From assembly GCA_016939365.1 (NCBI GenBank), contig JAFGHD010000043.1, positions 1 to 37,818 on the forward strand: DNA of 37,818 nucleotides. Direction: 5' to 3'. Shown one piece after another: positions 1,886-27,533 of this stretch. Source of the DNA: Bacteroidales bacterium (GTDB lineage: Bacteria; Bacteroidota; Bacteroidia; Bacteroidales; JAFGHD01). Every line of letters starts with the position of its first letter. Position 1 is the stretch's first letter. A program made the translations under genes and the position numbers. The notes below the pieces were generated by a model. It was not told where the DNA came from. It ran no database searches and saw only the letters and a program-made list of their open reading frames with translations.

Positions 1886-3454
1886 ATGCTGAGATTATTC
1901 CCATTATTGCTGATGGCAATCACTTTCCACCATGTGACGGCCCAGCACCAGAATGTCATGATCAGCAGCTCCAGCCAGCCCGAAGAGCCTTCCATATTCG
2001 TCAACCCCAAGAATACGGATCATCTCGTGGGCGGGGCCAACATCAACAATGTTTACTTTTCATTGGACGGCGGGTTTACATGGAACAAATCCACCCTCTA
2101 TTCCCAGCAATATGGGGTTTGGGGAGACCCGTGCACGATCATCGACACGGCAGGGAACTGTTACTTTTTCCATCTTTCAAATCCACCGTCGGGTAGCTGG
2201 ATCGACCGAATAGTGTGCCAGAAATCGACGGATGGGGGGCAGACCTGGGACGACGGCACCTATATGGGCCTGAACGGCACGAAGGCGCAGGACAAGGAGT
2301 GGGGCGTGGTCGACCGCTCGAATAACAATATTTATGTCACATGGACGCAGTTTGATGATTACGGCAGCGGCAATCCCAACGACAGCAGTATCATCCGGTT
2401 CGCCAAGTCGGTTGACGGCGGTATGACATGGAGCGAGGCCGTCAGGATCAACAAGGTGGCGGGCGACTGCATCGACAGTGACAACACGGTGGAGGGCGCT
2501 GTTCCGGCAGTGGGTCCCAACGGTGAGATATACGTAGCCTGGGCCGGACCTGAGGGCCTTGTGTTCGACCGGTCGCTGGACCAAGGGGAGACATGGCTGG
2601 ATGAGGATATCTTCGTGACCGATTTCCCGGGCGGTTGGGATTACAGCATCCCTGGCATATATCGCTGCAACGGATTGCCCATCACGGAATGCGACCTCAG
2701 CGGAGGAGCCCACCACGGGACCATCTATATCAACTGGACCGACCAGCGGAACGGAACGGACGACACCGATGTCTGGCTGGTTAGGTCTACTGACGGCGGG
2801 GATACCTGGAGCGAGCCCATGAGGGTGAATGACGATCCGCCGGGCAGGCAGCAGTTCTTCACCTGGATGGATGTCGACCAGGTCACCGGATTCCTGTGGT
2901 TCGTGTTTTACGACCGCAGAGATTATACCGATAACAACACCGATGTGTATTTGGCGGTCTCCATCGATGGGGGTGACACCTTCATCAATTTCAAGGTGAG
3001 TGAATCGCCTTTCCTGCCGAACGCCTGGGTCTTTTTCGGTGATTATAACTGTATTTCGGCATACAATAACGTCGTCAGGCCTATATGGACGCGTCTGGAG
3101 GGAGGAGATCTCAGTGTATGGACGGCCATTGTTGACCCTTTTGCGGTGATCATCTCCGGCGAAGCCGCACCGCCTGCCATCCCGCTATCCACTCTTGAGC
3201 AGAACTATCCCAATCCCTTCCAGGATAATACATACTTCTCCTTCAAGCTGAACGAGCCCTCAGTGGTATCCCTCCATGTCTTCGACATGATGGGCAGGCT
3301 GGTCGCCACAGTGATCGATGGCATACGAATGGCTCCCGGCAGATATATTGAGCGCTTCGATGCCTCCTCCCGGTACCTGAGTCCCGGAGTCTATTATTTC
3401 TCATTGGTGACCAACGGCCTTGCCCAAAAACGGAAGATGCTCCTGGCGGAATAG
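1886..3454 (+). CDS. Secreted BNR/Asp-box (sialidase-like) beta-propeller with T9SS sorting domain
   Basis: A 522-residue secreted protein. The ATG at 1886 gives a good signal peptide (MLRLFPLLLMAITFHHVTAQ); the frame is open further upstream, but that stretch contains the promoter. Six Asp-boxes of the SxDxGxTW type are visible near residues 59, 114, 175, 230, 301 and 359 (for example STDGGQTW, SVDGGMTW, STDGGDTW), which predicts a six-bladed sialidase-fold propeller. The last ~80 residues (from about 441) are a T9SS type A sorting domain with NYPNPF and LSPGVYYF. Asp-boxes are structural and do not prove sialidase activity. The Arg triad, Tyr and FRIP motif of true sialidases were not recognised, so function is open: a glycan-binding or hydrolytic exoprotein. 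It converges on the EEP-family gene with a 21-nt gap. Confidence 0.85.
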   Translation: MLRLFPLLLMAITFHHVTAQHQNVMISSSSQPEEPSIFVNPKNTDHLVGGANINNVYFSLDGGFTWNKSTLYSQQYGVWGDPCTIIDTAGNCYFFHLSNPPSGSWIDRIVCQKSTDGGQTWDDGTYMGLNGTKAQDKEWGVVDRSNNNIYVTWTQFDDYGSGNPNDSSIIRFAKSVDGGMTWSEAVRINKVAGDCIDSDNTVEGAVPAVGPNGEIYVAWAGPEGLVFDRSLDQGETWLDEDIFVTDFPGGWDYSIPGIYRCNGLPITECDLSGGAHHGTIYINWTDQRNGTDDTDVWLVRSTDGGDTWSEPMRVNDDPPGRQQFFTWMDVDQVTGFLWFVFYDRRDYTDNNTDVYLAVSIDGGDTFINFKVSESPFLPNAWVFFGDYNCISAYNNVVRPIWTRLEGGDLSVWTAIVDPFAVIISGEAAPPAIPLSTLEQNYPNPFQDNTYFSFKLNEPSVVSLHVFDMMGRLVATVIDGIRMAPGRYIERFDASSRYLSPGVYYFSLVTNGLAQKRKMLLAE

Positions 3455-3475
3455 ATTGCACTCTTTTCAATTGGA

Positions 3476-4537
3476 TCAGTCATACAGCAGCATGACCTTC
3501 AGGAGGACGGGATGATGGTCGGAGTATTCGAATCCAAGATCGGGGGTGGAAACATTCTCAATGGCGATATTGGGTGAGAGGGCGAAGAAATCGATGACGG
3601 TAGTACCGGTTTCTCCGGGAACATAAGGCATGTTCACCTTACGGTTGGTAGGCATGGAGGGATCGAACGCCCACTGCCATCCGGCGGGAAGGAACCCGGG
3701 GTCCATCGGAGAGACCTGAAAGGGACGGTAAGTTTCCGCGATCCGTGATGTGTCATATCCCGGCGGATTCTGGTTCCAGTCGCCACCGATGATCACATGG
3801 CATCCGTTTTCAAACTCCCTTACCGCCGTTTCCCTGATCAGAGCCAGCTCGGACTCCCTCAGAGTCGCGGCATCATCGTAAGCCGAGTTGTGGATGTGAA
3901 GGATCACCAGGTCTTTATCCGGTTGTGTCCCGTACCGTGTCATCAGGATGCAGCGTTGAGGCATAAAAAGCCGTTTGGGCCAGGAATAACTTTTCTGAGA
4001 GGACAGACGAAGGGCTTCCGACGCTGCTGTTGCAGACAGGGTCAATAAACCTGACCTCACCCGGCCCATGGGTGACAGGAATGGCAACGGGACATGAAAT
4101 GAGCTGTAATTCAGCGCATAGACCTGCTCAAAACCAGGAAGCGCCTGTGAGATCATCGCAGCCTGTGGCGTGTGGTATGACCTCCGGGAGTCTGAATCCA
4201 CCTCCTGTAAGAGGATGACTGCAACATGATCCAGGGAGAGAAGCACCTCCCGGATACCTTCAAGATAATGGAAGACCTGATCCTTCCGGGGACGCACCAT
4301 CTGGCCTCCCTCATAGAAGAAATCCATTTCCCTTCCGAGACTTCCATAACCCATATTCCATGATACCAGTGAAAACCGTTCCGGTAAATGATCCTCATCC
4401 TGATCCCCGGCCTTTATGGTCACCGGCAGACGGGGTGGAGGTCTGTACTCCGTAATGACAGAGGCAGCGATGACAAGAACTGCATAAAGCAAGGGGATCA
4501 GCGCCAGCATACCCAATATGAATCCTGCGAGTTTCAT
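3476..4537 (-). CDS. Endonuclease/exonuclease/phosphatase (EEP) family protein
   Basis: A 353-residue protein with one N-terminal hydrophobic segment (MKLAGFILGMLALIPLLYAV), predicted to anchor it in the inner membrane or direct it to the periplasm. EEP-fold motifs occur in order: SLVSWNMGYG (metal-site Asn), ILLQEVDSDSRR (metal-binding Glu), HVIIGGDWNQNP (GDxN), TTVIDFFALS, and YSDHHPVLL near the C-terminus (catalytic SDHxPV). The family includes DNases, phosphodiesterases and inositol or sphingolipid phosphatases; the substrate cannot be assigned. I preferred the ATG at 4537 over a GTG four codons upstream. It diverges from the GH3 gene. No clear TAnnTTTG was found on its side of the intergenic region. 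Confidence 0.82.
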   Translation of the reverse strand: MKLAGFILGMLALIPLLYAVLVIAASVITEYRPPPRLPVTIKAGDQDEDHLPERFSLVSWNMGYGSLGREMDFFYEGGQMVRPRKDQVFHYLEGIREVLLSLDHVAVILLQEVDSDSRRSYHTPQAAMISQALPGFEQVYALNYSSFHVPLPFLSPMGRVRSGLLTLSATAASEALRLSSQKSYSWPKRLFMPQRCILMTRYGTQPDKDLVILHIHNSAYDDAATLRESELALIRETAVREFENGCHVIIGGDWNQNPPGYDTSRIAETYRPFQVSPMDPGFLPAGWQWAFDPSMPTNRKVNMPYVPGETGTTVIDFFALSPNIAIENVSTPDLGFEYSDHHPVLLKVMLLYD

Positions 4538-13729: not shown

Positions 13730-14234
13730 CATTATTCTCAGAAATACGCTCCGGTTTGTCATCCTGGTACTTCTCCAGGTGTTGATCCTTGACCATGTTC
13801 ATCTCGGGGGTTACGTCAATCCTTACCTTTATGTCTATTTCATCCTGCTGCTTCCGCTGGAAATCCCCGGGTGGCTGCTGCTGGCCGTTTCGTTTCTGGC
13901 GGGATGGATGATCGACCTCTTTTCTCACACACCGGGAATGCATGCGGCGGCTTCTGTCTTCATGGCATTTTGCAGACCCCTGGTGCTTCGCAGCATCTCC
14001 TCGAGAACCGAATATGAACCCGGCATCCGCCCCACCATTCACGATCTGGGATTCCGGTGGTTCTTCTCCTACAGCCTCATCCTGATATTTGCACACCACC
14101 TGGTACTGTTCTATCTCGAAGTGTTCCGGTTCTCCGGATTCTTCCTGACCCTGCAACGGACACTCCTTTCGGTCCTGCTCACCCTTATACTTGTCATTCT
14201 GGCTCAATACCTGTTCAGCAAACCTTCCCGATGA
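13722..14234 (+). CDS. mreD: Rod shape-determining protein MreD
   Basis: A 170-residue protein with about five hydrophobic helices, in the size and topology of MreD. Visible segments include NPYLYVYFILLLPLEIPGW and a membrane-embedded GWMIDLFSHTPGMHAAASV motif, which is the conserved MreD region with the Asp. The start chosen is the ATG at 13722, overlapping the end of mreC; a further upstream in-frame start lies inside mreC. Many Bacteroidota continue with mrdA (PBP2) and rodA; here a secreted propeller protein follows instead. Confidence 0.87.
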   Translation: MSSIILRNTLRFVILVLLQVLILDHVHLGGYVNPYLYVYFILLLPLEIPGWLLLAVSFLAGWMIDLFSHTPGMHAAASVFMAFCRPLVLRSISSRTEYEPGIRPTIHDLGFRWFFSYSLILIFAHHLVLFYLEVFRFSGFFLTLQRTLLSVLLTLILVILAQYLFSKPSR

Positions 14235-14320
14235 ATATACTCGGACGAGATGAACCGGCTGCAAACATCAGGCTCCTGAAGTTTTTACTATTTTTAACAC
14301 GGTTTATTAATAATACGCCC

Positions 14321-16345
14321 ATGTCAGACCTTATGACTTGCAACACTGTTTTACGACACCTGGTATTGTTTCCATGCATGCTGTTCCTTCTTTGGATAAT
14401 ACCCCCGGTTTCCCGGGCGGATAACTGGCAGGTGGGGCCCGGTGGCAAGCCTTCCCGGCACAGCCTCTCCTCCGAACATGGTCCTTCCTTACCTCAGCTT
14501 TTATGGCAGGGAAGCCTGAATGCCGTGGTATCCCAGCAGGCGGTGATCGACGGGAACATCGTCGCATTGCCCAGGATGTTCAATATCAATGACGTTCTGC
14601 ACGGGACCCTGATCGTCACGCATGACCTGCAAACCGGCGACACCCTCTGGACAGCGGACCTGCCGGTCGATTTCCCCTCCACCGACTGGAGGAACAGGGT
14701 GTCCGCCTTCCGGGACGGTGTCGTTTACGCCACCCGTTCGGGCAATACCAACTACTCGTACATGTACGCGTTGTCGGCCGCTGACGGATCGATCATATGG
14801 AAATCACAGGGCCTGGTGAATGAAAGCAGTACGGAAGGGGTCTCTTTCACTTCGGAAGGCGATCTGGTTGTCGGAAACTTTTCCAGTGTGATGCGGATCA
14901 GTGCCCCGGACGGATCGACCGTTTGGGAAACCAACCGGAGCTGTCCGACCAGCAACGGCCAGGAGGTGGCGGTCTTCGCGGGCAAGGGATACTACTGGGA
15001 GGCCAGCCCCTATGGCCCGAAAGTCAGTGTCATCGACCTGGAAACCGGGGATGGCCTCTATTCCAGCGCCGCTTTGAGCCCGGGCTTCATCCAGCAACTG
15101 GGTCTTTTCATAGGCCCCGATGGCACGGTATATGCACCGCGGACCATGAACAATCCCACGACCGACTTCCTTTTTGCCCTTGAGGACAATGGATCCGAGC
15201 TGGTCATCAAATGGAGTGTGCCGCTCGGATATGTACCGTTCTCAACCTTCGGCACAGGCCCTGATGGATCGGTATACAGCTACTCCGTCAATGGCGAGGT
15301 GATCCGGCTCGATCCCACTACAGGCAGCATCCTGAACACCTCCATGGCGATCCTTTCGGGTACCTCACCCTCACCGAGGATGGCCGTCGATGCACAGGGA
15401 TATCTTTACATAACCAACGGTGGATTTGCCACCGGTGCCTTCCATTCGTTCAACCCGGATCTCTCCCTCAGGTGGACCGAACCGCTGCTGAACGTCAACG
15501 TGGGTGGCCCGGCCATCGGGAACGGGGGAACGCTGATCGTATGCGGGACAGGGAATGATGTGCGGGCATATAAGGGAACCTACGTGTTACAGGCCCTGTT
15601 CAGTGCAGATGACACCGATCCCTGTGCCGGAGATGTGGTAAACTTCACCGACCAGTCACTTGGCTCCGTGGTATCCTGGAGCTGGCATTTTCCGGGGGGA
15701 ACACCCGATTATTCCACGGCTCAGCACCCCGAAGTGGCATACCTCTCGACCGGAACCTATGATGTGACATTGGTGGTCTCTGACGGATCACTGACTGATA
15801 CACTGATCCGGCCAGGCTATATCGAAGTGCTTCCGCTGCCTGCCGCCACATTCGCCGGATTGCCTCTCTTTCACCTGGGTGATCCTCCATATCTCCTGAC
15901 GGAAGGATCGCCGGTGGGAGGAACATATTCCGGCCCAGGTGTAACGGAAGGTTATTTTTACCCCGACTCGGCCGGTCAGGGAACACATGAAATCAAATAT
16001 ACCTTCACGGATCCCAACGGATGCAGCAATTTTGCGGTTCAGACCGCGACAGTGCTGCCGGCCACATACCTCAACGAAATCCGGACAGACAGATTCATAC
16101 TGCTGCCCAATCCAGCCAGTCAGAACACTTTCCTGATTTCGGACATAAGCTTTCCGTGTACCATTTCTTTTCGGATCACGGACCTCAATGGCAATACGGT
16201 CAGGGAATTGAGTAATATGGGCGTGCCTGCCGGTGAAAGCAGGATGTCAATAGACACTGAAAGCCTCCTGCCGGGGATATATTTCTGGCACCTGGTATCG
16301 GATCTTCATACAGCAGTTTCAGGGAAGATATTACTGATCAGGTGA
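14321..16345 (+). CDS. Secreted PQQ-like beta-propeller protein with PKD and T9SS sorting domains
   Basis: About 674 residues (ATG 14321; an ATG at 14333 is equally possible). A signal peptide is followed by about 400 residues of PQQ/quinoprotein-like repeats (WTADLPVDFPSTDW, YMYALSAADGSIIWKS, SVIDLETGDGLY, FGTGPDGSVYSYS), the pattern of a BamB-like WD40-type propeller. A PKD domain (about 429-495) contains NFTDQSLGSVVSWSW and GTYDVTLVVSDG. An Ig-like domain with YTFTDPNGC comes next, then a C-terminal T9SS domain with LLPNPAS and LLPGIYFWHL. It probably acts as a surface or released scaffold, and no catalytic site was recognised. The frame is open upstream into mreD, but those codons overlap mreD. 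TATTTTTA just upstream is a weak -7 candidate. Confidence 0.82.
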   Translation: MSDLMTCNTVLRHLVLFPCMLFLLWIIPPVSRADNWQVGPGGKPSRHSLSSEHGPSLPQLLWQGSLNAVVSQQAVIDGNIVALPRMFNINDVLHGTLIVTHDLQTGDTLWTADLPVDFPSTDWRNRVSAFRDGVVYATRSGNTNYSYMYALSAADGSIIWKSQGLVNESSTEGVSFTSEGDLVVGNFSSVMRISAPDGSTVWETNRSCPTSNGQEVAVFAGKGYYWEASPYGPKVSVIDLETGDGLYSSAALSPGFIQQLGLFIGPDGTVYAPRTMNNPTTDFLFALEDNGSELVIKWSVPLGYVPFSTFGTGPDGSVYSYSVNGEVIRLDPTTGSILNTSMAILSGTSPSPRMAVDAQGYLYITNGGFATGAFHSFNPDLSLRWTEPLLNVNVGGPAIGNGGTLIVCGTGNDVRAYKGTYVLQALFSADDTDPCAGDVVNFTDQSLGSVVSWSWHFPGGTPDYSTAQHPEVAYLSTGTYDVTLVVSDGSLTDTLIRPGYIEVLPLPAATFAGLPLFHLGDPPYLLTEGSPVGGTYSGPGVTEGYFYPDSAGQGTHEIKYTFTDPNGCSNFAVQTATVLPATYLNEIRTDRFILLPNPASQNTFLISDISFPCTISFRITDLNGNTVRELSNMGVPAGESRMSIDTESLLPGIYFWHLVSDLHTAVSGKILLIR

Positions 16346-16629: not shown

Positions 16630-19600
16630 ATGAAAAGGCTTTTTACAAACCTGATTTTGGTTATGCTGGTATCTGCCGGTTTGGCACAAGGCTGGAGACC
16701 CGGTGAGATGCAGGTTCTTGTCGGCATTCAGTCACCTGAACAGGCAGAGATGCTGGCGTTCATGGGCGTGAGTTTCGAATGGATGGGTACGGAGACCGGC
16801 CAGGTAAGGGCGTATTTGGTCCCGGATGAGTTGGAGAGGATCCGGCAGTCGGGCATGGATTATAGCGTTGAGGTTGAAGACCTCAACCGGCATTACGAAA
16901 ATTATTGGCTGTCGGAGGATTTCTATCATTCCTACCAGCAGATCATTGACCTGGCCGACAGCCTGGAACAGAGTTTTCCATCGATCTGCAAAAAGCATCT
17001 GTTCGGTCAGTCGGTGGCTGGCCGGCAGCTGGCTGCGCTCAAGATCAGCGACAATGTCGGAACGGATGAACCCGAACCGGAGGTGATGTTTGACGGTGGG
17101 ATCCATGGCGATGAGATCGGATGTTCTGAAAATGTGATCCGGTTTGCAAGGGATCTCTGTCTTGATTATGGAGTGGACCCCACCACCACCGACCTGGTCA
17201 ACAACCGCGAGATATGGCTTTACCTCATGGTCAATCCCGACGGGAGGGTCAATATGAGCCGGTACAATAACAACGGCGTGGATCTGAACCGTGACTGGTG
17301 CTATATGTGGGATTCGTGGGGCGGAAGTCCCGGCGCCTGCTCCCAGGTGGAAAGCAAGGCTTTGAGAGACTGTATGTACGGGAATCAGTTCGTGGTACAC
17401 ACCACTTACCACAGCGGAACGGAATTCATTTCATACCCCTGGAGCTACCGCTCCAATCCGACTCCCGATCAGGCTCATATCGACCAGCTGGCAGCCCTGT
17501 ACTCCTCAGTGTCGGGTTATTCAAATCTGCCCTATGGTCAGGGGTACAGCGGGATGTATGCCATCAACGGCAGCACGAAGGACGGCAACTACGGGATAAT
17601 GGGCTCCATCTCCTGGTCCCTTGAGATTTCCAACAGTAAACAGCCGCCTGCCTCACAGATCATGCTGTATTACAACCGCAATTATCCCTCGATGATGACA
17701 TTGATCGAGTACTCCGGTTATGGACTGCAGGGCCTTGTGACCGATGCAGTATCGGGCCAGCCTGTGGCAGCCAGCATCTTCGTCAGCCAGGGAAGTACAA
17801 ATTATTTCCCGACCTATACCGATCCGGAGGGTGGGGATTATCATAAATACGTCCTTCCGGGTACCTATTCCATCAGGGTGGTGGCCAACGGATATGTCAC
17901 ACAGATCATGAACAGCATCACAGTGGTGGCCGGAAACCCGACCAATACGGATTTTCAGCTTCAGCCGCAGGAAGGGCAGTTCGTCTACCGGTTTACCGCC
18001 TCACAGATCCCCGACAACAATTCCAGCGACGAAGGGAACACCCCTGCAGTGATCGGTCCTCCCGACAATATCAACTACTCCATCGGCAAGAACGGATGGT
18101 GTATCCTGGATATGCAGATTCCTATTGCTGATGGGGCCGGTCCTGACATCCGGGTACATGAAGGGGATTCCTCGCCGGAAGGATACACCTGTTATGCAGG
18201 CGAAACCATCGACGGCCCATGGATCAGCATGGGCACCGGGACGGGAACCACTGAGTTCGATATCGCACAGGCAGGTCTTCCCGATGTACAGTTCATCAAG
18301 ATCGTGGATGACGGAGACGGCCAGGCCAACGTTGCGGATGCAGGCTTTGACCTGGATGCCATTGAGGCCCTGGAGCCCGTCTCAGGGATATACCTGGCCC
18401 TGTTCGAGTATGTCATCGATGATGCTTCTGGCAACAACAACGGCAAGATCGACCCGGGTGAAACGGTCGACCTGATCGTCACCCTCAGGAACAACGGGGA
18501 CGTGACAGCCGAAAATGTCACCGGAACGGTTTCCGTCTCCACCTCCTTCATCACCTTGAACATGGCCACGGTCAGCTTCGGGAATATTGCACCCGGCGGA
18601 TCAGCCTCCGGTACCTTCACCTTCACGGCATCCCCGTCTACACCGGCCGGTTATCCCTTCGATATGAACCTTGATGTCACCTCCAACGGCGGCACTTACA
18701 ACAACAGCTTCGTCATGAGCTTTGTGGTGGGTCAGATCCCCGTGATCATCATTGACCTGGACGGGAACCACAATTCGGCGCCTGCCATGGAGGCCGCCAT
18801 GCAGGCCAATGGGATCAATCCCGATGTTTCAAGCGTTTTCCCGGCCGATATCGGCATCTATAGCTCTGCCTTTGTATGCCTGGGCGTTTATTCCGACAAC
18901 CATGTACTTACTTCATCTGAGGGTCAGGCATTGGCAGCCTTCCTGAACAACGGCGGCCGGGTGTATATGGAAGGCGGTGATACCTGGTATTATGATCCCG
19001 CAACGCCCGTGCACAGCATGTTCAACATCAACGGTGTGGATGACGGGGACGATGACCTCGGCACCATCAACGGGCAAGCCGGAACATTCACAGAAGGAAT
19101 GAGTTTCAGCTACAATGGGGATAACCTCTGGATCGACCATATCGAGCCCATATCACCGGCTTACATGATCCTGATGAACCAGTCCCCCAGTTACGGCACG
19201 GGAGTGGCGTATGATCAAGGATCATACAGGACCATCGGTTGTTCCCATGAGTTCGGTGGCCTCACAGATGGGGCCACTCCCTCAACAAAGGAGGAACTGA
19301 TGCATGAATACCTGGCCTTTTTCGGCGTGCTTCCCGATTATCTCATGGCGGCCTTCACCGCCGACCAGACAGAGGTCTGCGAAGGGGAGACTGTGAATTT
19401 CACCGATAACTCCTCAGGCAATGTCACCTCCTGGAGCTGGGAGTTCCCGGGGGGAACCCCTGCCACCTCCACCCAGCAGGATCCGTCAGTCGTTTACAAT
19501 ACTGCCGGGACCTATGATGTCACCCTGACCGTTTCGGATGGTACAAATACCCATTCCCTTACCAAGGAGAATTACATTTCGGTCCTTACTGTTCCACCTG

Positions 19601-20139
19601 CGCCCGGGACACCCCAGGGACCTGAACAGGTATGTGTGAACCTCACACCCACCACCACCTACAACACCTCCGGATCTGCCGGGGCTGAGAGCTATATCTG
19701 GGATATCCAGCCTCAGGATGCGGGATCGATATCCGGAACCGGAACCACAGGCACTGTAGCATGGAATCTTTGGGAAGGTACGGCGACAATTTCTGTCAAA
19801 GCGGTGAACGATTGCGGAGAGAGTGCTTTTTCCCAGGGGCTTGAAGTTTGGTGCGTTATTTGCACAGGTGCGGCTGAAATTGAGGTGGGGCATGAATGGC
19901 TGATCACACCCAATCCGAATGATGGCCGGTTCATCATACAAAATGCCGCCCATGATCTGTCCGGGATCAACCTCAGGGTCCTCCGCACTGACGGAAAAGA
20001 GATCTATTCCGGCAGTGACCTTCAAACCGACAGCAGGGGAGAGATCAGGATGAACATTCCTGAAGTACCTGCGGGAGTGTACATCCTTGCAATCAGGACA
20101 GGCCAGCTGGACATATATAAGAAAATAGTTATTTATTAA
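16630..20139 (+). CDS. Secreted M14 zinc carboxypeptidase, multidomain, with T9SS sorting domain
   Basis: A 1169-residue exoprotein. Signal peptide 1-19 ends in AGLAQG. A ~85-residue pro-region precedes the M14 catalytic domain (about 108-360). Zinc ligands are His159 and Glu162 (GGIHGDEIG) and His261 (HTTYHSG); substrate Arg221 lies in VDLNRDW and catalytic Glu332 in WSLEIS. Next come a CarboxypepD_reg-like domain (~365-445), a discoidin/CBM-like jelly roll (~450-590), a CARDB-like domain starting at SGNNNGKIDPGET (~592-700), an alpha/beta module (~701-905), a PKD domain (~908-982), an Ig/PKD-like domain and the T9SS tail (ITPNPNDGRF, VPAGVYILAI). Expected role: trimming C-terminal residues from extracellular peptides. 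It stands upstream of two C25 peptidases with a 45-nt gap. Confidence 0.92.
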   Translation: MKRLFTNLILVMLVSAGLAQGWRPGEMQVLVGIQSPEQAEMLAFMGVSFEWMGTETGQVRAYLVPDELERIRQSGMDYSVEVEDLNRHYENYWLSEDFYHSYQQIIDLADSLEQSFPSICKKHLFGQSVAGRQLAALKISDNVGTDEPEPEVMFDGGIHGDEIGCSENVIRFARDLCLDYGVDPTTTDLVNNREIWLYLMVNPDGRVNMSRYNNNGVDLNRDWCYMWDSWGGSPGACSQVESKALRDCMYGNQFVVHTTYHSGTEFISYPWSYRSNPTPDQAHIDQLAALYSSVSGYSNLPYGQGYSGMYAINGSTKDGNYGIMGSISWSLEISNSKQPPASQIMLYYNRNYPSMMTLIEYSGYGLQGLVTDAVSGQPVAASIFVSQGSTNYFPTYTDPEGGDYHKYVLPGTYSIRVVANGYVTQIMNSITVVAGNPTNTDFQLQPQEGQFVYRFTASQIPDNNSSDEGNTPAVIGPPDNINYSIGKNGWCILDMQIPIADGAGPDIRVHEGDSSPEGYTCYAGETIDGPWISMGTGTGTTEFDIAQAGLPDVQFIKIVDDGDGQANVADAGFDLDAIEALEPVSGIYLALFEYVIDDASGNNNGKIDPGETVDLIVTLRNNGDVTAENVTGTVSVSTSFITLNMATVSFGNIAPGGSASGTFTFTASPSTPAGYPFDMNLDVTSNGGTYNNSFVMSFVVGQIPVIIIDLDGNHNSAPAMEAAMQANGINPDVSSVFPADIGIYSSAFVCLGVYSDNHVLTSSEGQALAAFLNNGGRVYMEGGDTWYYDPATPVHSMFNINGVDDGDDDLGTINGQAGTFTEGMSFSYNGDNLWIDHIEPISPAYMILMNQSPSYGTGVAYDQGSYRTIGCSHEFGGLTDGATPSTKEELMHEYLAFFGVLPDYLMAAFTADQTEVCEGETVNFTDNSSGNVTSWSWEFPGGTPATSTQQDPSVVYNTAGTYDVTLTVSDGTNTHSLTKENYISVLTVPPAPGTPQGPEQVCVNLTPTTTYNTSGSAGAESYIWDIQPQDAGSISGTGTTGTVAWNLWEGTATISVKAVNDCGESAFSQGLEVWCVICTGAAEIEVGHEWLITPNPNDGRFIIQNAAHDLSGINLRVLRTDGKEIYSGSDLQTDSRGEIRMNIPEVPAGVYILAIRTGQLDIYKKIVIY

Positions 20140-20155
20140 AACCGAAAGGAAATCA

Positions 20156-20163
20156 TACATTTG
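20156..20163 (+). promoter_or_regulatory. -7 element TACATTTG for the first C25 peptidase
   Basis: TACATTTG matches TAnnTTTG, 21 nt before the ATG at 20185. It overlaps an in-frame TTG at 20161 that could be taken as a start, which argues against that start. The gene can therefore be transcribed separately from the M14 gene. Confidence 0.5.
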
Positions 20164-20184
20164 TCCTTTTCTAAAATTGAAACA

Positions 20185-23100
20185 ATGACGAAAATTTCAC
20201 TGCATCTCACACTGTTTTTGCTCCCATTCATGGCTTTTCCCCAGGAAGTTGTCTATTCCGGCAGCTGGGGGAAGGCAGGCTACACCCTGCAGGAGCAGGG
20301 TACGGAAGGGATCAGGGTCGGTTTTTCGGTTACCCGCTTTGTAATCAGTGATGTTCAGATCAACGGGGAGGGGATGTCGGCGATTTCCCTGCCTGAGGCG
20401 ATCCTTCCCAATCAGGCAGGTGCTCCGGATCTGCCCGGACTGGCCCGTTACATAGCAGTACCTGCCGGAGCCACAGCCACACTCAGGGTGACGGCCAGCC
20501 GGACTGAAACCCTTCAGGGAATGAATATTGCACCAGCGCCCAGGATTCCATGGGATACGGAGAGAGAAGCACTGGATTATCAGAAAGATGAAACCATTTA
20601 TTCCGCAGACAGGTTTTATCCGGAAACCCCGGTCATCCTCTCGGAAACCGGAACCATACGTGGTGTAGATGTCGTTCTTCTGGGCATTACCCCATTCGGA
20701 TATAATCCGGTGTCGAAGGAGCTGATCATTTACCGTGACCTCGAGGTGGAGATATCCTTTGAAGGTGGGACGGGCTTGTTCGGTGACGAGCGGCTGAGAA
20801 GCCGCTGGTGGGATCCGATCCTCCGTGACATGCTGCTCAATGAAGCCTCCCTGCCTGATCTGGATTATGGAAGGATGTACAGGAGCGGCAAGGAAGATGG
20901 TTGTGAATACCTGATCATCTCTCCTGATGGTGCGGAGTTTCAGTCATGGGCTGACTCCATCAGCCTGTTCCGTAACCGGCAGGGTATCCTGACCGATGTG
21001 GTCACCCTTTCTGAGATTGGCGGCAATACGGCAAACAGCATCGAGACCTATCTCAACAACGCCTATAATACCTGGACCATTCCCCCGGCAGCGGTGCTGT
21101 TCCTTGGGGATTACGGGACCAATGCCTCCAACAGCATCATCGCTCCCATATGGACCAATTACTGTGCATCCGACAACATCTTCGCCGATGTCAACGGCGA
21201 TAACCTGCCGGATATCGTCCATGCCCGGATCACTGCCCAGAATGCGGCACACCTGGAAACGATGGTCGGGAAATTCCTCTCCTATGAGCGTAATCCCCCG
21301 ACGAACCCGCATTATTACGATCACCCCATCACGGCGATGGGATGGCAGACCGAACGATGGTTCCAGATCTGCTCGGAAGTGATCAATGGTTTCTGGGAGT
21401 TTGGATTGGGAAAGGAGCCGGTGCGGGAGAACAACATTTATGAGGGAACACCGACCGGCATCTGGTCTACGGCCCAGAATACCAACACGGTGGTGGCCTA
21501 TTTCGGACCTGCAGGACTCGGATATATTCCGCAGACCCCTGACCACCTGATCGACTGGAATGCAGATGCTGAAAGCATCAATGCCGACATCAATGCCGGT
21601 GCATTCATGATGGTCCACCGTGATCACGGATACGAACAGGGATGGGGAGAGCCTGATTACAGTTCAAGCGACCTGACCGGGCTCAGCAACGATGACCTGA
21701 TCTACGTCTTTTCTGTGAATTGTCTCACGGGAAAGTATAATATGAGCGGCGAATGCTTTACGGAAGCCTTTCACCGGCACCAGCAAGGTGCCCTGGGACT
21801 GATCGCCGCCTCTGAAGTTTCATATTCGTTCGTCAACGATACCTATGTATGGGGTCTGATGGATAACCTGTGGCCCCAGTTCATGCCGGGATTCGGAACC
21901 AACCCGCCATCAAGGGATATCCTGCCTGCTTTCGGCAATGCCGCGGGGAAGTATTTCCTCCAGCAGTCGGGATGGCCTTATAATACCAGCAATAAGCTGG
22001 TGACCTATCACCTGTTCCATCCGCACGGCGATGCCTTTTCCACGGTATATTCCCACATGCCCCAGGAGCTGACGGTCCTGCACAACGGAGCCCTGCTTGA
22101 CGGAGCCAGCACCTATTCGGTGGTTGCAGATACATGTGCACTGATCTGTCTTTCCGTGAACGGTGAGATCATCGGGGTAGCTGAAGCGACTGGAGAACCT
22201 GTTGACGTGCAGATCATATCCCAACCGACCGGCACCACCGTGGAGCTTACTGTGACCCGGCAGGATTATTACCGGCATACCGAAACCATTCCCGTCGTCC
22301 CGGCCAATGTGCCCTATGTGGTCTATGAAAGCCATCTCCTTGATGATACAGGCGGTAACAACAATGGACTGATGGATTATGGCGAGACCATCCAGCTGAC
22401 CGTCACCATGGAGAACATCGGAATGCAGGCCGCCAGCAATGTGAACGTCACGCTCGGTACCGCCCACCCTGAGATCACCATCACAGACGGAACGGAGACT
22501 TTTGGCAACTTCACTCCCGGATCCACAGTGACCCGGCAGGATGCCTTCACCTTTGATGTCTCAGGCCTGATCAACGACCAGGATAAGGTGGTTTTCGACC
22601 TGGAAGCAAACGACGGGAGCAATACCTGGATGAGTTATTTCCTGATCGTGGCACATGCGCCCGATCTGGGGATCGAATCCTTCGGGATATCCGATCCCTC
22701 CGGTAACGGCAATGGCAGGCTGGATCCGGGAGAGACAGCTGATATTTCAATCACTCTGGTTAACGAAGGCAGTTCAGGAGCCATGAACGTTACGGGGACC
22801 CTCTCCTGCTCCGATCCGGTGATATCGATCAGCCAGGCCACACAGTCATACGGCAACCTGAACCCCGGAGCAAGCGCAGAAAAGTCATTTACCGTGACAG
22901 TGGATCCTGCGGCACCCCAGGGACACCAGGTAACCTTCGAAATCTCCATCACCGCCGACGGAGGAGTAACCACACAGGGATCCTTCATCACATTTATCGG
23001 CAAGTTCCCGGTATTGATTCTTGACCTTGACCCGAAGAATTATTCGGGCCCTGAAATATACAACACATTCCAGGAAATTGAGGTCTACGCGGATTATGCC

Positions 23101-23922
23101 ACCGCCTTCCCTCCCGACCTGGGATTGTACAAGAACATCTTTGTCTGCCTGGGCATTCACTTCAACAACCATGTACTCACCGAAACGGAAGGACAGCAAC
23201 TCAGGGACTTTTTGCTGGAGGGTGGAAACCTTTACATGGAAGGCAAGGTTACATGGCTTAACGATCCGCCGACACCGGTTCATCCGATGTTCGACATCAT
23301 TGCAGTCCAGGATACCTGGTTCGAATATTTAAATATCCTGGGTATGCCCGGAACCCTTACAAACGGTATGGACTTCGGGTATACAGGGGAAAATCCCTAT
23401 AACAACTACTACCTTGAACCTGACGGACAGGCCCATGTCATCTTTACGGTTCAGGATCCTCTCATGGGGTGCGGTATTGCCAACGACGAAGGAGATTACA
23501 GGACCATCGGCACCACCTTTGAATTTGGGAAACTGGCCGATGGAGCATCTCCCTCCACGAAACCGGAGCTCATGCAGATCATCATGGATTTCTTCGATGG
23601 CCTGATTACGGGAAATCCGGAAGAACGGCCCGCATCCCTTACTGATGCCCGGTCCATATCTGTTTATCCCAACCCGTTCCGTGAGGAAGTCGTCATCATG
23701 TTCACGACGGAAAAAGACTCACGGATTTCTGTCGAAATATTTGCTTCTTCCGGACAACTGGTCAGTACACTGATACATTCCCTGCCGCTGGATCCCGGTA
23801 TGCACCAGGTCAGTTGGAAGGGGACATCCGATTCCGGCCGTACAGTACCGGCAGGTATCTATCTGGTGAGAATCAGTGACGGAAAGGAAGTGGTCACAAC
23901 CCGAATGGTCAGGATTGATTAG
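20185..23922 (+). CDS. Gingipain-like C25 cysteine peptidase with CARDB-like pair, alpha/beta module and T9SS sorting domain
   Basis: A 1245-residue exoprotein. Signal peptide ends near FMAFPQ. A C25 propeptide (~22-225) is followed by the caspase-like catalytic domain (~230-640). The catalytic pair is His481 in VHRDHGYEQGWGEP and Cys513 in FSVNCLTGKYN; their 32-residue spacing closely matches His211/Cys244 of RgpB. A gingipain-type Ig domain follows, then two CARDB-like domains (from ~715 and ~831; motifs GGNNNGLMDYGET, SGNGNGRLDPGET), then an alpha/beta module (~939-1142) homologous to that in the M14 protein. A FlgD-like T9SS tail (VYPNPFREEVVI, VPAGIYLVRI) ends it. Arg/Lys specificity cannot be inferred. 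A close paralogue follows 113 nt downstream. Confidence 0.92.
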   Translation: MTKISLHLTLFLLPFMAFPQEVVYSGSWGKAGYTLQEQGTEGIRVGFSVTRFVISDVQINGEGMSAISLPEAILPNQAGAPDLPGLARYIAVPAGATATLRVTASRTETLQGMNIAPAPRIPWDTEREALDYQKDETIYSADRFYPETPVILSETGTIRGVDVVLLGITPFGYNPVSKELIIYRDLEVEISFEGGTGLFGDERLRSRWWDPILRDMLLNEASLPDLDYGRMYRSGKEDGCEYLIISPDGAEFQSWADSISLFRNRQGILTDVVTLSEIGGNTANSIETYLNNAYNTWTIPPAAVLFLGDYGTNASNSIIAPIWTNYCASDNIFADVNGDNLPDIVHARITAQNAAHLETMVGKFLSYERNPPTNPHYYDHPITAMGWQTERWFQICSEVINGFWEFGLGKEPVRENNIYEGTPTGIWSTAQNTNTVVAYFGPAGLGYIPQTPDHLIDWNADAESINADINAGAFMMVHRDHGYEQGWGEPDYSSSDLTGLSNDDLIYVFSVNCLTGKYNMSGECFTEAFHRHQQGALGLIAASEVSYSFVNDTYVWGLMDNLWPQFMPGFGTNPPSRDILPAFGNAAGKYFLQQSGWPYNTSNKLVTYHLFHPHGDAFSTVYSHMPQELTVLHNGALLDGASTYSVVADTCALICLSVNGEIIGVAEATGEPVDVQIISQPTGTTVELTVTRQDYYRHTETIPVVPANVPYVVYESHLLDDTGGNNNGLMDYGETIQLTVTMENIGMQAASNVNVTLGTAHPEITITDGTETFGNFTPGSTVTRQDAFTFDVSGLINDQDKVVFDLEANDGSNTWMSYFLIVAHAPDLGIESFGISDPSGNGNGRLDPGETADISITLVNEGSSGAMNVTGTLSCSDPVISISQATQSYGNLNPGASAEKSFTVTVDPAAPQGHQVTFEISITADGGVTTQGSFITFIGKFPVLILDLDPKNYSGPEIYNTFQEIEVYADYATAFPPDLGLYKNIFVCLGIHFNNHVLTETEGQQLRDFLLEGGNLYMEGKVTWLNDPPTPVHPMFDIIAVQDTWFEYLNILGMPGTLTNGMDFGYTGENPYNNYYLEPDGQAHVIFTVQDPLMGCGIANDEGDYRTIGTTFEFGKLADGASPSTKPELMQIIMDFFDGLITGNPEERPASLTDARSISVYPNPFREEVVIMFTTEKDSRISVEIFASSGQLVSTLIHSLPLDPGMHQVSWKGTSDSGRTVPAGIYLVRISDGKEVVTTRMVRID

Positions 23923-24035: not shown

Positions 24036-27000
24036 ATGAAAAATTTGAAAACCAAAATGTTGAATTTTATTCGCGACATGCAGTATATGCTGTATGCGGT
24101 GATGCTGGTTTCAGCCACTGTCCTGCAGGCTCAGGAGGTGGTTTACCAGGACAGCTGGGGAAACGAAGGGTATACTTTGGAGCAGCAATCTGCTGACGGG
24201 GTTAAGGTGAATTTCTCCATTACCCGGTTTACCATGCGGGATGACCAGATCAATGGTGAATCGATGCGGGTGATCGATCTTCCCGGGCATTTTCTTCCCA
24301 ACGATGAAGGGGCTCCGAACCTTCCCGGTTCAGGGCGCTTCATTGCCATTCCTCAGGGTGCAGAGGCTGTTGTGGAGGTGATATCCGCCCGGACAGACAA
24401 ATTCCAGGACGTTGACCTGGCCCCTGCCTTCCGGATCCCGTGGGATACGGAACCGGGTCCGCTCCAGTATGAAAAAGACATGACGATCTACGGGCAGGAT
24501 GCCTTTTATCCAGCGCAACCGGTCCAGCTGTCAGAACTTACCGAGATCCGCGGCGTGGACGCTGTGATGCTGGGAATCACTCCTTTCCAGTACAATCCGG
24601 TGACCAGGGAGCTGATCGTTTACCGCGACCTGGAGATCCGGGTGACTTTTGAAGGAGGCAACGGTCAGTTCGGTGACAACCGCCTGAGGAGCAGGTGGTG
24701 GGACCCGTTGTTCAGCGACATGTTCCTCAACTTTGAGACCCTGCCGGAGATGGACTATAACCGTTCTTTCCAGGGCGACACCAGGGATACCGGTTGTGAG
24801 TACCTGATCGTTGTCCCCACGGGAGCTGAGTTCCAGCAATGGGCCGACTCCATCAGGATCTTCCGCAACAGGCAGGGCATCCAGACCGATGTGGTAACCG
24901 TTGATGACTGCGGCGGAAATACAGCCACGGCTCTGGAGGCATATTTCAACAATGCCTACAACAACTGGGACATAGTTCCGGCAGCCGTCCTGCTGATGGC
25001 GGATTACGGCACCAACCCGGCGATGAACATCATAGCGCCGATATACAACAACTACTGTGCTTCGGATAATATCTACGCCGATGTCACCGGTAACTCAATG
25101 CCCGATATCGTTTTTGCAAGGATGACGGCCAACAGTGCTTCACAGCTGCAGGTGATGGTGACCAAATTCCTGAATTATGAGAGGACCCCACCGACCAATC
25201 CCGATTTCTACCAGCACCCCATCACCGCACTGGGATGGCAGACCGAAAGGTGGTTCCAGATCTGTTCGGAAACCGTCGGCGGTTACTGGAAACATGAGCT
25301 CGGCAAGGAGCCTGTGAGGATCAATGCAATTTTCTCCGGGAATCCCACCACTATCTGGTCCACTGCACAGAATACCAGTACGGTAGTGAATTTCTTCGGC
25401 CCCAATGGGCTGGGATATATTCCTGCCACTCCCGCCGAACTCGGCGGATGGAGCGGCGGCAATGCCACCATGGTGAACAATGCCATCAACAGCGGCTCTT
25501 TTATGCTGCAACACCGCGACCATGGGTGGGAGCAGGGCTGGGGCGAACCTGCCTATTCCTCCACCAACATCAACGCACTGACCAATACCGACCTGACGTT
25601 TGTGCTTTCCATCAACTGTCTTACCGGGAAATACAATATGGGCGGCGAGTGTTTCACCGAGAAGTTCCACAGGCATACCGCCTCAGGTAACAATTCGGGT
25701 GCCCTGGGTCTCACTGCCGCATCCGAAGTTTCCTATTCTTTCGTGAACGACACCTATGTGTGGGGACTGTATGACAACATGTGGCCGGATTTTATGCCCA
25801 CCTACGGCACCACTCCGGATTCGAGGGATATCCGTCCCGCTTTCGGCAATGCGGCCGGCAAGTATTTCCTTCAGTCTTCCAACTGGCCTTACAACACCAG
25901 CAACAAGATGGTCACCTACAATCTTTTCCATCACCACGGCGATGCCTTCAACTGGGTATATTCCGAGGTTCCCCAGAACCTGACTGTGTCACATGAATCC
26001 TCGCTGGCACCGGGTGCCACTACCTTCGAGGTGACTGCCGATGACGGCTCATTCATTGCGCTCAGCGTCAATGACGAGATCATTGGTACGGGTGACGGAA
26101 CGGGTGCACCGGTCTCCATCGAGATACCGTCACAGACGCCTCCGGGACAGATGAGGGTAGTGGTTACCAAGCAGAATTACTACCGTTATGAGGCGCTGGT
26201 GGATATTCAGTATAGTACGACCGCCTTTGCCGGTGATGATGCCGTGATCTGCGAGGGAAGCGACTATCAGTGCATGGGTACAGCCACCAATTACAACTCT
26301 GTCGAGTGGAGTACTTCCGGAACCGGAACCTTCGATAACACTGCCATACTCGAACCGCTTTACACTCCCAGTACCGATGACATCCTGAATGGTTCAGTCA
26401 CCCTGACACTGACAGCCATAGGTGCCTCCGTGACAGTCAACGACGATATGGATCTCACCATCATCGCCGCAGCCACCGGAGATGCCGGATCAGACGGACT
26501 GATCTGCGAGACCGATGTGTTCCAGATCACTGAAGCCGCCGCTGACAATTATTCCTCTATAATGTGGTCCACTTCAGGTGACGGTACCTTTGATGATGCC
26601 ACCCTGATGAACCCGGTTTACACTCCCGGAACCCAGGATCTCTTTAACGGCTCTGCCATCCTCACCATGATGGTTTACGGCAACCAGCCTTGCGGCGATG
26701 TGCAGGACGACCTGGTGCTTACCATTGAAAAGCAGGCGGAAGCCTTCGCAGGAGCGGATGCCACTATATGTGAAACAGACGGCTATCAGCTCATGGATGC
26801 CACCGCCGGCAACTATTCCTCACTTGCCTGGACTACCGCGGGAGATGGCACTTTCGATGATGCCACCATACTGAATCCGACCTATACACCGGGTGCAGGC
26901 GATATCTCCGCCGGATCGGTCACCCTGACAATTACTGCCATCGGCAATCAGCCGTGCGGTGACGTAGATGCCCAGATGGTTCTTTCCATTGTAGCAACCG

Positions 27001-27533
27001 CCACCGTTGATGCGGGTGCCGACGGTGAGATTTGCCACGATGCCACCTTCCCGGCCAGCGGTACGGTATCGGGCAACTACGACACCTATATGTGGAGCAC
27101 CTCAGGTGACGGTACCTTCGATGATCCCTCGCTGATGAATCCCATCTATACCCCGGGTCAGCAGGATATCCAGAGCGGAACCGTGAACCTGACGCTTAGC
27201 GCTACAGCGTTTGCCCCCTGCACGGATATCACCGATGAGCTTACACTTACCGTAAAGGATTGCTCCGGATGGGGTGAGATCACTTCTGCCGACGGTTTCG
27301 GGATTTATCCCAACCCGACCAACGGAGCCTTTACCATCCGCCTGAACGTGGAGAGCAACCAGGTCAGCATGACCCTGTTCAACTCGCTGGGCGAAAAGGT
27401 ATATGAGAACCGGGAAATGAACGTCGCGGGTGAAACCTCCATACCGCTGGATCTTGATCTTGAGAACGGTATCTATTATCTCAGGATTGAAGGCGATGAC
27501 TTTGTCAGCATGCAGAAGCTGATCGTCAGATAG
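24036..27533 (+). CDS. Gingipain-like C25 cysteine peptidase with four tandem adhesin-type repeats and T9SS sorting domain
   Basis: A 1165-residue paralogue of the preceding gene. Signal peptide ends near VLQAQE. The propeptide and catalytic domains align with it throughout (RSRWWDP, TDVVTV, QTERWFQICSE). The catalytic pair is His496 (QHRDHGWEQGWGEP) and Cys528 (LSINCLTGKYN), again 32 apart. After the Ig-like domain the two proteins differ. This one has four repeats from ~730 to ~1077 with ICE/ICH cysteines at 739, 824, 912 and 1000 (period 85, 88, 88) and motifs such as GDGTFDDATLMNPVYTPG. The tail has IYPNPTNGAF and LENGIYYLRI. Repeats of this type occur in large Bacteroidota surface adhesins. 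The gene ends before a strong terminator. Upstream, TAATTTTA (24007-24014) is a weak -7 candidate. Confidence 0.92.
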   Translation: MKNLKTKMLNFIRDMQYMLYAVMLVSATVLQAQEVVYQDSWGNEGYTLEQQSADGVKVNFSITRFTMRDDQINGESMRVIDLPGHFLPNDEGAPNLPGSGRFIAIPQGAEAVVEVISARTDKFQDVDLAPAFRIPWDTEPGPLQYEKDMTIYGQDAFYPAQPVQLSELTEIRGVDAVMLGITPFQYNPVTRELIVYRDLEIRVTFEGGNGQFGDNRLRSRWWDPLFSDMFLNFETLPEMDYNRSFQGDTRDTGCEYLIVVPTGAEFQQWADSIRIFRNRQGIQTDVVTVDDCGGNTATALEAYFNNAYNNWDIVPAAVLLMADYGTNPAMNIIAPIYNNYCASDNIYADVTGNSMPDIVFARMTANSASQLQVMVTKFLNYERTPPTNPDFYQHPITALGWQTERWFQICSETVGGYWKHELGKEPVRINAIFSGNPTTIWSTAQNTSTVVNFFGPNGLGYIPATPAELGGWSGGNATMVNNAINSGSFMLQHRDHGWEQGWGEPAYSSTNINALTNTDLTFVLSINCLTGKYNMGGECFTEKFHRHTASGNNSGALGLTAASEVSYSFVNDTYVWGLYDNMWPDFMPTYGTTPDSRDIRPAFGNAAGKYFLQSSNWPYNTSNKMVTYNLFHHHGDAFNWVYSEVPQNLTVSHESSLAPGATTFEVTADDGSFIALSVNDEIIGTGDGTGAPVSIEIPSQTPPGQMRVVVTKQNYYRYEALVDIQYSTTAFAGDDAVICEGSDYQCMGTATNYNSVEWSTSGTGTFDNTAILEPLYTPSTDDILNGSVTLTLTAIGASVTVNDDMDLTIIAAATGDAGSDGLICETDVFQITEAAADNYSSIMWSTSGDGTFDDATLMNPVYTPGTQDLFNGSAILTMMVYGNQPCGDVQDDLVLTIEKQAEAFAGADATICETDGYQLMDATAGNYSSLAWTTAGDGTFDDATILNPTYTPGAGDISAGSVTLTITAIGNQPCGDVDAQMVLSIVATATVDAGADGEICHDATFPASGTVSGNYDTYMWSTSGDGTFDDPSLMNPIYTPGQQDIQSGTVNLTLSATAFAPCTDITDELTLTVKDCSGWGEITSADGFGIYPNPTNGAFTIRLNVESNQVSMTLFNSLGEKVYENREMNVAGETSIPLDLDLENGIYYLRIEGDDFVSMQKLIVR
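26223..27268 (+). repeat. Four tandem protein-coding repeats (about 255-264 nt each)
   Basis: Within the second C25 gene, equivalent Cys codons lie at 26250, 26505, 26769 and 27033. Each unit encodes AGxDxxICE..., then W(S/T)T(S/A)GDGTFDD or a variant, (L/I)xxPxYTP, and a strand ending SVTLTLTA. Units 2-4 are more alike than unit 1, which has GTGTFDNTAILEPLYTP. Confidence 0.85.

Follow-up and report, generated by a model that had tools for sequence, protein, structure and literature searches.

On a contig of a Bacteroidales bacterium (JAFGHD010000043.1, assembly GCA_016939365.1; positions 1 to 37,818, the whole stretch analyzed, are called the window here), two adjacent genes encode an M14 metallocarboxypeptidase and a C25 (gingipain-type) cysteine peptidase whose C-terminal parts resemble each other. 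The resemblance covers a cassette of two units, an immunoglobulin-like (Ig-like) domain followed by a module of about 200 residues, and raises the question of what the module is and what it does on both enzymes. Our favored answer, to which we give a probability of roughly 45%, is that peptidases secreted by the type IX secretion system (T9SS) use the cassette as an exchangeable accessory unit, in which a pocket of the module would bind one common ligand or partner.

The cassette and its predicted fold

A single collinear BLASTP alignment joined the M14 and C25 proteins across the Ig-like domain and the module, with 140 of 311 residues identical (45%), two gap positions and an E-value of 3e-77; for the catalytic parts, no alignment was reported in the same comparison. 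Judged by sequence, the likeness of the two cassettes is far beyond chance. An earlier inspection of the letters without database searches (the sequence-only reading) had proposed the same ordered pair of domains in both proteins, and the alignment bears this out. The five landmark pairs that it quoted are all present: SGNNNGKIDPGET, PVIIIDLD, FVCLGVYSDNHVL and DGATPSTKEELM start at residues 600, 704, 748 and 880 of the M14 protein, and SGNGNGRLDPGET, PVLILDLD, FVCLGIHFNNHVL and DGASPSTKPELM at residues 847, 950, 994 and 1127 of the C25 protein; the remaining pairs are aligned by BLASTP. The interval proposed at that time, 18405–19345, fits the M14 cassette. The peptidase cluster is composed as follows.

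16630–20139, + strand: M14 metallocarboxypeptidase, 1169 amino acids, T9SS cargo (Pfam Peptidase_M14, E 9.8e-46, residues 106–352)
Residues 366–445 of the M14 protein: CarboxypepD_reg domain (Pfam)
18385–18732, + strand: CARDB-like Ig domain, first half of the M14 cassette (SGNNNGKIDPGET); aligns with the C25 copy
18733–19329, + strand: module, M14 copy; predicted class I amidotransferase-like domain lacking the catalytic cysteine (BLASTP, model, structure match; no Pfam family)
19360–19833, + strand: PKD_4 and PKD_6 domains, C-terminal to the M14 module (Pfam, E 5.2e-13 and 2e-12)
19909–20133, + strand: T9SS type A sorting domain of the M14 protein (TIGR04183, 27.1 bits, cut-off 23)
20161–23922, + strand: C25 cysteine peptidase, 1253 amino acids counted from a TTG, the first ATG lying 8 codons further in (Peptidase_C25, E 5.2e-44 at residues 250–624; Propeptide_C25, E 1.5e-24)
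22660–23004, + strand: CARDB-like Ig domain of the C25 cassette (SGNGNGRLDPGET; BLASTP, Pfam CARDB)
23005–23598, + strand: module, C25 copy (47% identity to the M14 copy; 271 bits against the module profile)
23662–23907, + strand: T9SS type A sorting domain of the C25 protein (TIGR04183, 34.8 bits, cut-off 23)
24036–27533, + strand: third peptidase, a second C25 enzyme with a T9SS tail and without the module (Peptidase_C25, E 3.3e-41; Por_Secre_tail, E 2.6e-12)

Both module proteins of the window thus exceed the TIGR04183 cut-off for T9SS type A cargo. The Ig domain of the M14 cassette, with strands at model residues 4–115, matches CARDB under the Pfam cut-off (E 0.0038), and in the C25 protein a second, earlier Ig-like copy precedes that of the cassette (39% identity over 88 residues by BLASTP). 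The idea that the second C25 enzyme also bears the module was rejected, as no module match was found there. Directly upstream of the cluster, positions 14192–16345 (+ strand) encode a PQQ-repeat protein with a PKD domain and a T9SS tail.

The module is a domain unnamed in Pfam. When 24 module sequences were scanned singly at E 10 (a setting at which HMMER filters drop most matches above 0.1), the best match was DUF4159 at E 0.11, in 3 of the 24; no family covered the module, and no GATase or ThuA family model matched any of the 24. The remark in the sequence-only reading that it knew no name for the module therefore stands. Searches of PDB sequences with a single module sequence and with the profile gave chance-level matches only, none of 11 stretches of viral contigs that fit a pattern encodes a relative, and among the matches listed from the open-licence literature no title concerned the module or a T9SS selenoprotein.

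A model of the cassette, built by AlphaFold2 from an alignment of 82 cassettes, reached a mean predicted local distance difference test score (pLDDT) of 94.4 and a predicted template modeling score of 0.80. Ranked by E-value, the Foldseek list for the whole cassette is headed by matches of large root-mean-square deviation in which the Ig part is mixed up with domains of other kinds, and the fold call rests instead on the VIA-align list, in which cassette residues 117–318, the module, superpose on class I amidotransferase-like domains. Among the matches was the glycoside hydrolase family 42 (GH42) structure 5xb7_C (Z 18.0, 2.8 Å, 182 residues), GH42 enzymes overall scoring Z 15.7–18.0; others were STM1381 (3soz, 18.0), STM3548 (2gk3, 17.4), the GATase1-like 3rht (16.6), the N-terminal domain of IFT52 (5fmr, 16.0), Pdx2 (2nv2_F, 15.1), the ThuA-like 4jqs (14.4), a Thermotoga glutamine amidotransferase (1kxj, 14.4) and Agd3 (14.0). 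By this model, the module has a class I amidotransferase-like fold that is best matched by GH42 trimerization-type domains, and the sequence-only guess of a ThuA or class I amidotransferase-like fold is borne out by matches to such domains at Z 14–18. ThuA-like and DUF4159 proteins, related by 4jqs and by the weak Pfam match, differ from the module in that they give no meaningful Pfam match to it and have another architecture.

Residue conservation was counted over the 82 cassette rows, cassette residue 1 being residue 586 of the M14 protein (add 585; Glu196 is residue 781). The elbow after the fourth parallel strand (YMEGGDTW here), which from strand order we take to be the nucleophile-cysteine site, has Glu in all 82 rows, and any Cys at residues 190–204 occurs in only 4. 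The idea of an active class I glutaminase was therefore rejected despite the fold. Pdx2 and the imidazole glycerol phosphate synthase glutaminase are alike in fold (Z 14.2–15.1), whereas the module has the elbow Glu and a His before the C-terminal Glu (His288) in only 50 of 82 rows. Ser131, Leu166, Gly167, Glu196, Gly197, Thr200, Trp201, Thr207, Thr283 and Glu289 are invariant (82/82), and Asp126 (81), His210 (80) and Asp199 (77) nearly so. They fall into motifs: DxDxN..S follows strand 1, LG strand 3 and EGGDTW strand 4, with T..H next, and TxG...E stands close to the end. Mean conservation is 0.97 after strand 4 (five residues) and 0.87 after strand 3, whereas the module as a whole averages 0.70 and the Ig domain 0.56.

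Carriers of the module and its exchange between peptidases

The window's genome holds 11 module matches at E ≤0.1, of which nine reach E 1.5e-31 or better (one of these cut by a contig end); the other two are a weak selenocysteine (Sec)-type relative and a contig-edge fragment. In a sample of the order, 34 of 198 genomes had a match at E 1e-5, the weak rows including Sec-type copies. Among 296 genomes of the phylum, 7 had a match with one sequence at E 1e-5 and 13 with the profile at E 1e-6. A motif scan of named genomes gave 331 relatives; our named-genome sample consists of the best 80 of these 331 matches to one motif (74 loci; L numbers here denote loci of any sample, the window's genome included) and therefore leans to close relatives. 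These 80 are mostly from Bacteroidales, together with records labeled Ignavibacteriota or its families, Chlorobiota and Cloacimonadota.

From 136 module-bearing frames, some of which are one gene in overlapping loci, we took 88 upstream regions, those with a first module that begins no earlier than residue 640, counting identical regions once. By Pfam, 71 of them contain Peptidase_C25, 10 Peptidase_M14 and 2 Peptidase_S8 (L028 and L030, whose modules are weak at 146 and 83 bits); the other 5 (L023, L087, L088, L091 and L106) match no peptidase model. The N-terminal part of these five is a common domain in which papain-like motifs can be seen by eye (Q....CGQAS, NHAL..GY and N.Y...G.NGF). It has no Pfam or PDB sequence match, and the clan CA label is by eye only because the AlphaFold2 model of that part failed (pLDDT 31). 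The 88 leave out cut frames, a module protein without a peptidase (L022), a Sec-type piece (L024) and a cut M4 peptidase (L029). Further carriers outside the set are S8 peptidases (L195 and L197), a fungalysin-type propeptide alone (L187) and one with a sub-cut-off M36 match (L188); L196 has no recognized catalytic domain. The weakest relatives stand on an Amidase_3 protein (L193) and on proteins with sub-cut-off M23 matches (L189 and L192). L189–L194 are T9SS proteins with a related but distinct domain (GDEST...SGSE.WDL), three of which, when tested, had M23-like or Amidase_3 matches; this domain may represent a subfamily of its own that accompanies cell-wall hydrolases.

A T9SS type A tail was found at E 0.01 in 86 of 98 C-termini (102 less 4 cut by contig ends). 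In this sample, the association of the module with exported peptide-bond hydrolases is strong. The pair of unrelated peptidase folds named in the sequence-only reading, which had called for a look at catalytic partners in other Bacteroidota, thus widens to C25, M14 and S8 by Pfam, with M4 and M36-like enzymes among distant members and a papain-like group by motif alone, and the sample did not show a module scattered over unrelated proteins that have nothing to do with peptidases. Peptidase-free exceptions are the Sec-type relative and L022 of the window's genome (G000:C34, 1–3420, − strand), which has a signal-like start, two modules, PKD domains, three repeats of a DFETGDFSKFPW-type domain, no recognized peptidase and a cut C-terminus. 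The L022 protein is possibly a scaffold or adhesin.

To place the carriers on the history of the module, we computed a quick tree of 103 modules, leaving out L031–L059, whose upstream part is cut, and modules below 100 bits except L030. Nine carrier labels were used, one of them 'unknown' (8 rows), with C25 split in three by likeness to the C25 protein of the window. The labels require 37 changes (minimum 8, shuffled mean 61.6), or 31 without the unknowns; part of the 37 are shifts among the three C25 subgroups, cut frames can carry a wrong label, and the long branches L023, L028, L029 and L030 are unreliably placed. The M14 label changes 8 times for 10 rows.

Identities between genomes (87 rows, five labels) are nearly independent of the carrier for the module, 59.9% across different labels and 61.6% within the same label; for the Ig domain they fall from 46.6% within a label to 40.3% across labels. 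In 7 of 10 cases, an M14 gene with the module lies beside a C25 gene with the module. At the two closely related loci L125 and L132, adjacent M14 and C25 proteins have modules that are 77% and 73% identical and Ig domains that are only 35% and 32% identical; the window pair has 47% and 41%, respectively. Given this near-independence, the module seems to have been copied between unrelated peptidases and kept alike whatever its partner, and this speaks for a function that lies outside the catalytic domain.

What the module may do

The sequence-only reading had put forward substrate capture, pairing of the two enzymes or a separate activity as possible roles. The reading of the cassette as an accessory unit starts from the shared sequence, the predicted fold, the elbow without a cysteine, the C25, M14 and S8 partners found by Pfam, the T9SS tails and the exchange between catalytic domains. 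In the mechanism that we envisage, the CARDB-like Ig domain would be a spacer before an amidotransferase-like domain without the glutaminase cysteine. The conserved loop residues after the parallel strands and the TxG...E near the end most likely build a pocket; we infer a single pocket because the usual layout of such folds places these residues together. The pocket would bind a common target, for which surface glycans, the ends of peptides or proteins and sister modules are candidates. Through this shared ligand or partner, endopeptidases (C25) and exopeptidases (M14) would be paired, either by staying on the same target or by joining one assembly.

Two known arrangements are comparable in the way they may work. 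The HA adhesin domains of the Porphyromonas gingipains RgpA and Kgp are, like the module, C-terminal accessory parts of T9SS C25 peptidases; they differ in being beta-rich. In Ca. Stygibacter (Cloacimonadota), according to the excerpt of PMC8542988, C25 and S8 peptidases bear dockerins and a scaffoldin bears cohesins, from which an assembly was inferred. There too, one type of accessory domain occurs on C25 and S8 enzymes, the difference being a dockerin in place of an amidotransferase-like fold.

Several observations weigh against the accessory-unit reading. In the tree, 38 of 100 inner branches are open, and the well-supported ones force only at least 2 changes of the M14 label. Three M14 genes (L072, L098 and L103) show no neighboring C25 gene with the module, a contig end cutting one side in each, and L105 has an M14 gene without the module. 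The loops after strands 1 and 5 are less conserved than the residues before these strands (0.68 versus 0.83 and 0.77 versus 0.80). The closest structural matches are oligomerization-type domains, not known ligand binders, and ligand, partner and activity of the module are all proposals drawn from sequence and model.

Since the nearest folds are trimerization-type domains, the main rival is that the module self-associates and builds homo-oligomers or mixed oligomers of secreted peptidases, a possibility that we hold to be distinctly less probable. The best structural matches include GH42 enzymes and other hydrolases bearing such a domain: the GH42 beta-galactosidase trimerization domain, domain B of Op5Man5 (GH5; 7bob, Z 15.4) and GH164 are, like the module, class I amidotransferase-like and accessory to a hydrolase (Z 14.6–18.0 over 170–182 residues). 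Op5Man5 is a homotrimer and its domain B is called a trimerization domain in the excerpt of PMC8233224. These domains differ from the module in that they are found on glycoside hydrolases and are 8–17% identical to it. Self-association would also agree with the uniform module sequence across peptidase classes and with a slight excess of identity within genomes (0.02, 1 of 500 shuffles), although the Ig domain has a similar small excess (0.013, 1 of 500), and the two modules without a peptidase in L022 would suit a scaffold. A common fold, however, shows no function, and the invariant polar residues exceed the needs of a plain interface.

Only slightly behind in our estimate, and unlikely, is a separate enzyme: the module would itself be catalytic, for example a hydrolase or transferase whose active site draws on the conserved Glu, Asp, Thr, His and Glu, and act on products or glycans of the substrate of the peptidase. 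Glu196, Asp199, Thr200, His210 and Glu289, each kept in 77 to 82 of 82 rows, would suit an active site, as would the CxxU motif in the loop after strand 3 of a distant branch, whose selenocysteine would then make it a redox variant of the same site. Yet the elbow is without a nucleophile, no catalytic family was matched, and the two alignments of the Sec branch that were inspected show Val or Ile at the position of the C-terminal Glu.

That the module is a chaperone-like folding aid or a T9SS export aid rather than a functional part outside the cell would fit its position, after the catalytic domain and ahead of a C-terminus that in most cases bears a sorting tail, but is improbable, as it is rare (13 of 296 phylum-sample genomes) while the T9SS sorting tail is widespread in the phylum, the neighboring C25 protein manages without it, and one module would need to chaperone unrelated folds.

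A putative selenocysteine-type branch

The Sec-type relative of the window's genome (L024, G000:C118, 7795–9597, − strand) is a weak module match with an in-frame TGA, and its gene is followed by tRNA-Sec (62.3 bits, over the cut-off) and by selA and selB (NCBIfam equivalogs over the cut-off). Further loci of this type are L134, L137, L138 and L198–L202. At E 1e-20, the 198 genomes of the order contain 10 Sec-type genes in 8 genomes, each with one TGA; weaker matches are ordinary modules. The motif C-[LV]-[GSD]-U-[GS]-x-T-P-P-G occurs in all 10 copies, and its CxxU lies in the loop after strand 3. The possibility that these are decayed genes was rejected, because in 10 of 10 copies homology runs collinear through the lone TGA, on both sides of it. 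Searched as a set of ten sequences, their module parts score E 1e-16 to 8e-27 against the module profile, and no peptidase domain is present.

All 8 Sec-type genomes have a tRNA-Sec over the cut-off, against 26 of the 198 genomes of the order at E 1e-9 (Fisher 3.1e-8, kinship ignored), and in all 8, selA and selB share a contig with a Sec-type copy. The tRNA-Sec lies within ~220 bases downstream in 5 genomes, at 1.5 kb in 1, at ~9 kb in 1 and on another contig in 1; around the second copy of genome G392, neither selA–selB nor tRNA-Sec occurs within 14 kb. After the TGA, a consensus stem of 7 pairs can be drawn, 2 of them with changes on both sides, with a covariation term of only −0.19; single folds gave z from −4.2 to −0.15 in 7 copies against simple shuffles, and the G367 copy shows no stem. 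An Rfam scan of one locus gave no match besides tRNA-Sec. Among full-length copies of the 198 genomes, to which the search was confined, none has Cys at the TGA position.

One copy, that of the window's genome, was tested for a T9SS tail by model and has one (TIGR04183, 24.9 bits, cut-off 23), though the Pfam tail model stays below its cut-off there. A link of the Sec-type gene to C25 peptidases was unsupported: over the stretches examined, the window's genome is the only one of the 8 with a C25 neighbor. Also at L024, downstream of selB, 3373–4194 (− strand) encodes a ResA/thioredoxin-like protein with a T9SS tail, which might serve the Sec-type protein as a redox partner; a similar gene lies near the G452 copies.

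Table 1 of PMC13188914 displays, as far as we can see, no such selenoprotein family, and a term search of PMC9312934 gave no match. The same Table 1 contains a CTP-synthase-related selenoprotein with GxUxG (NF004836), which resembles the Sec-type relative in being amidotransferase-related and having selenocysteine; it differs in its GxUxG at an inferred nucleophile elbow, in place of CxxU after strand 3 and a T9SS tail. The Sec-type relatives are probably an unlisted, T9SS-exported selenoprotein family. We consider it reasonably likely that the wider family of the module includes this undescribed family, defined by a signal-like start, an Ig-like part, a module with C-[LV]-[GSD]-U, a T9SS tail and a location near tRNA-Sec, selA and selB. 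If so, a single extracellular pocket domain would exist in two versions, a binding one in the peptidase modules and one for redox chemistry in the selenoprotein.

These findings would give a name to a domain that Pfam lacks and that several unrelated secreted peptidases have in common, and would suggest that protein-degrading Bacteroidota and their neighbors share a principle of targeting or assembly. The Sec-type relative, if confirmed, would extend the use of selenocysteine to T9SS-exported proteins and give a direct handle on the extracellular chemistry that this fold can host.
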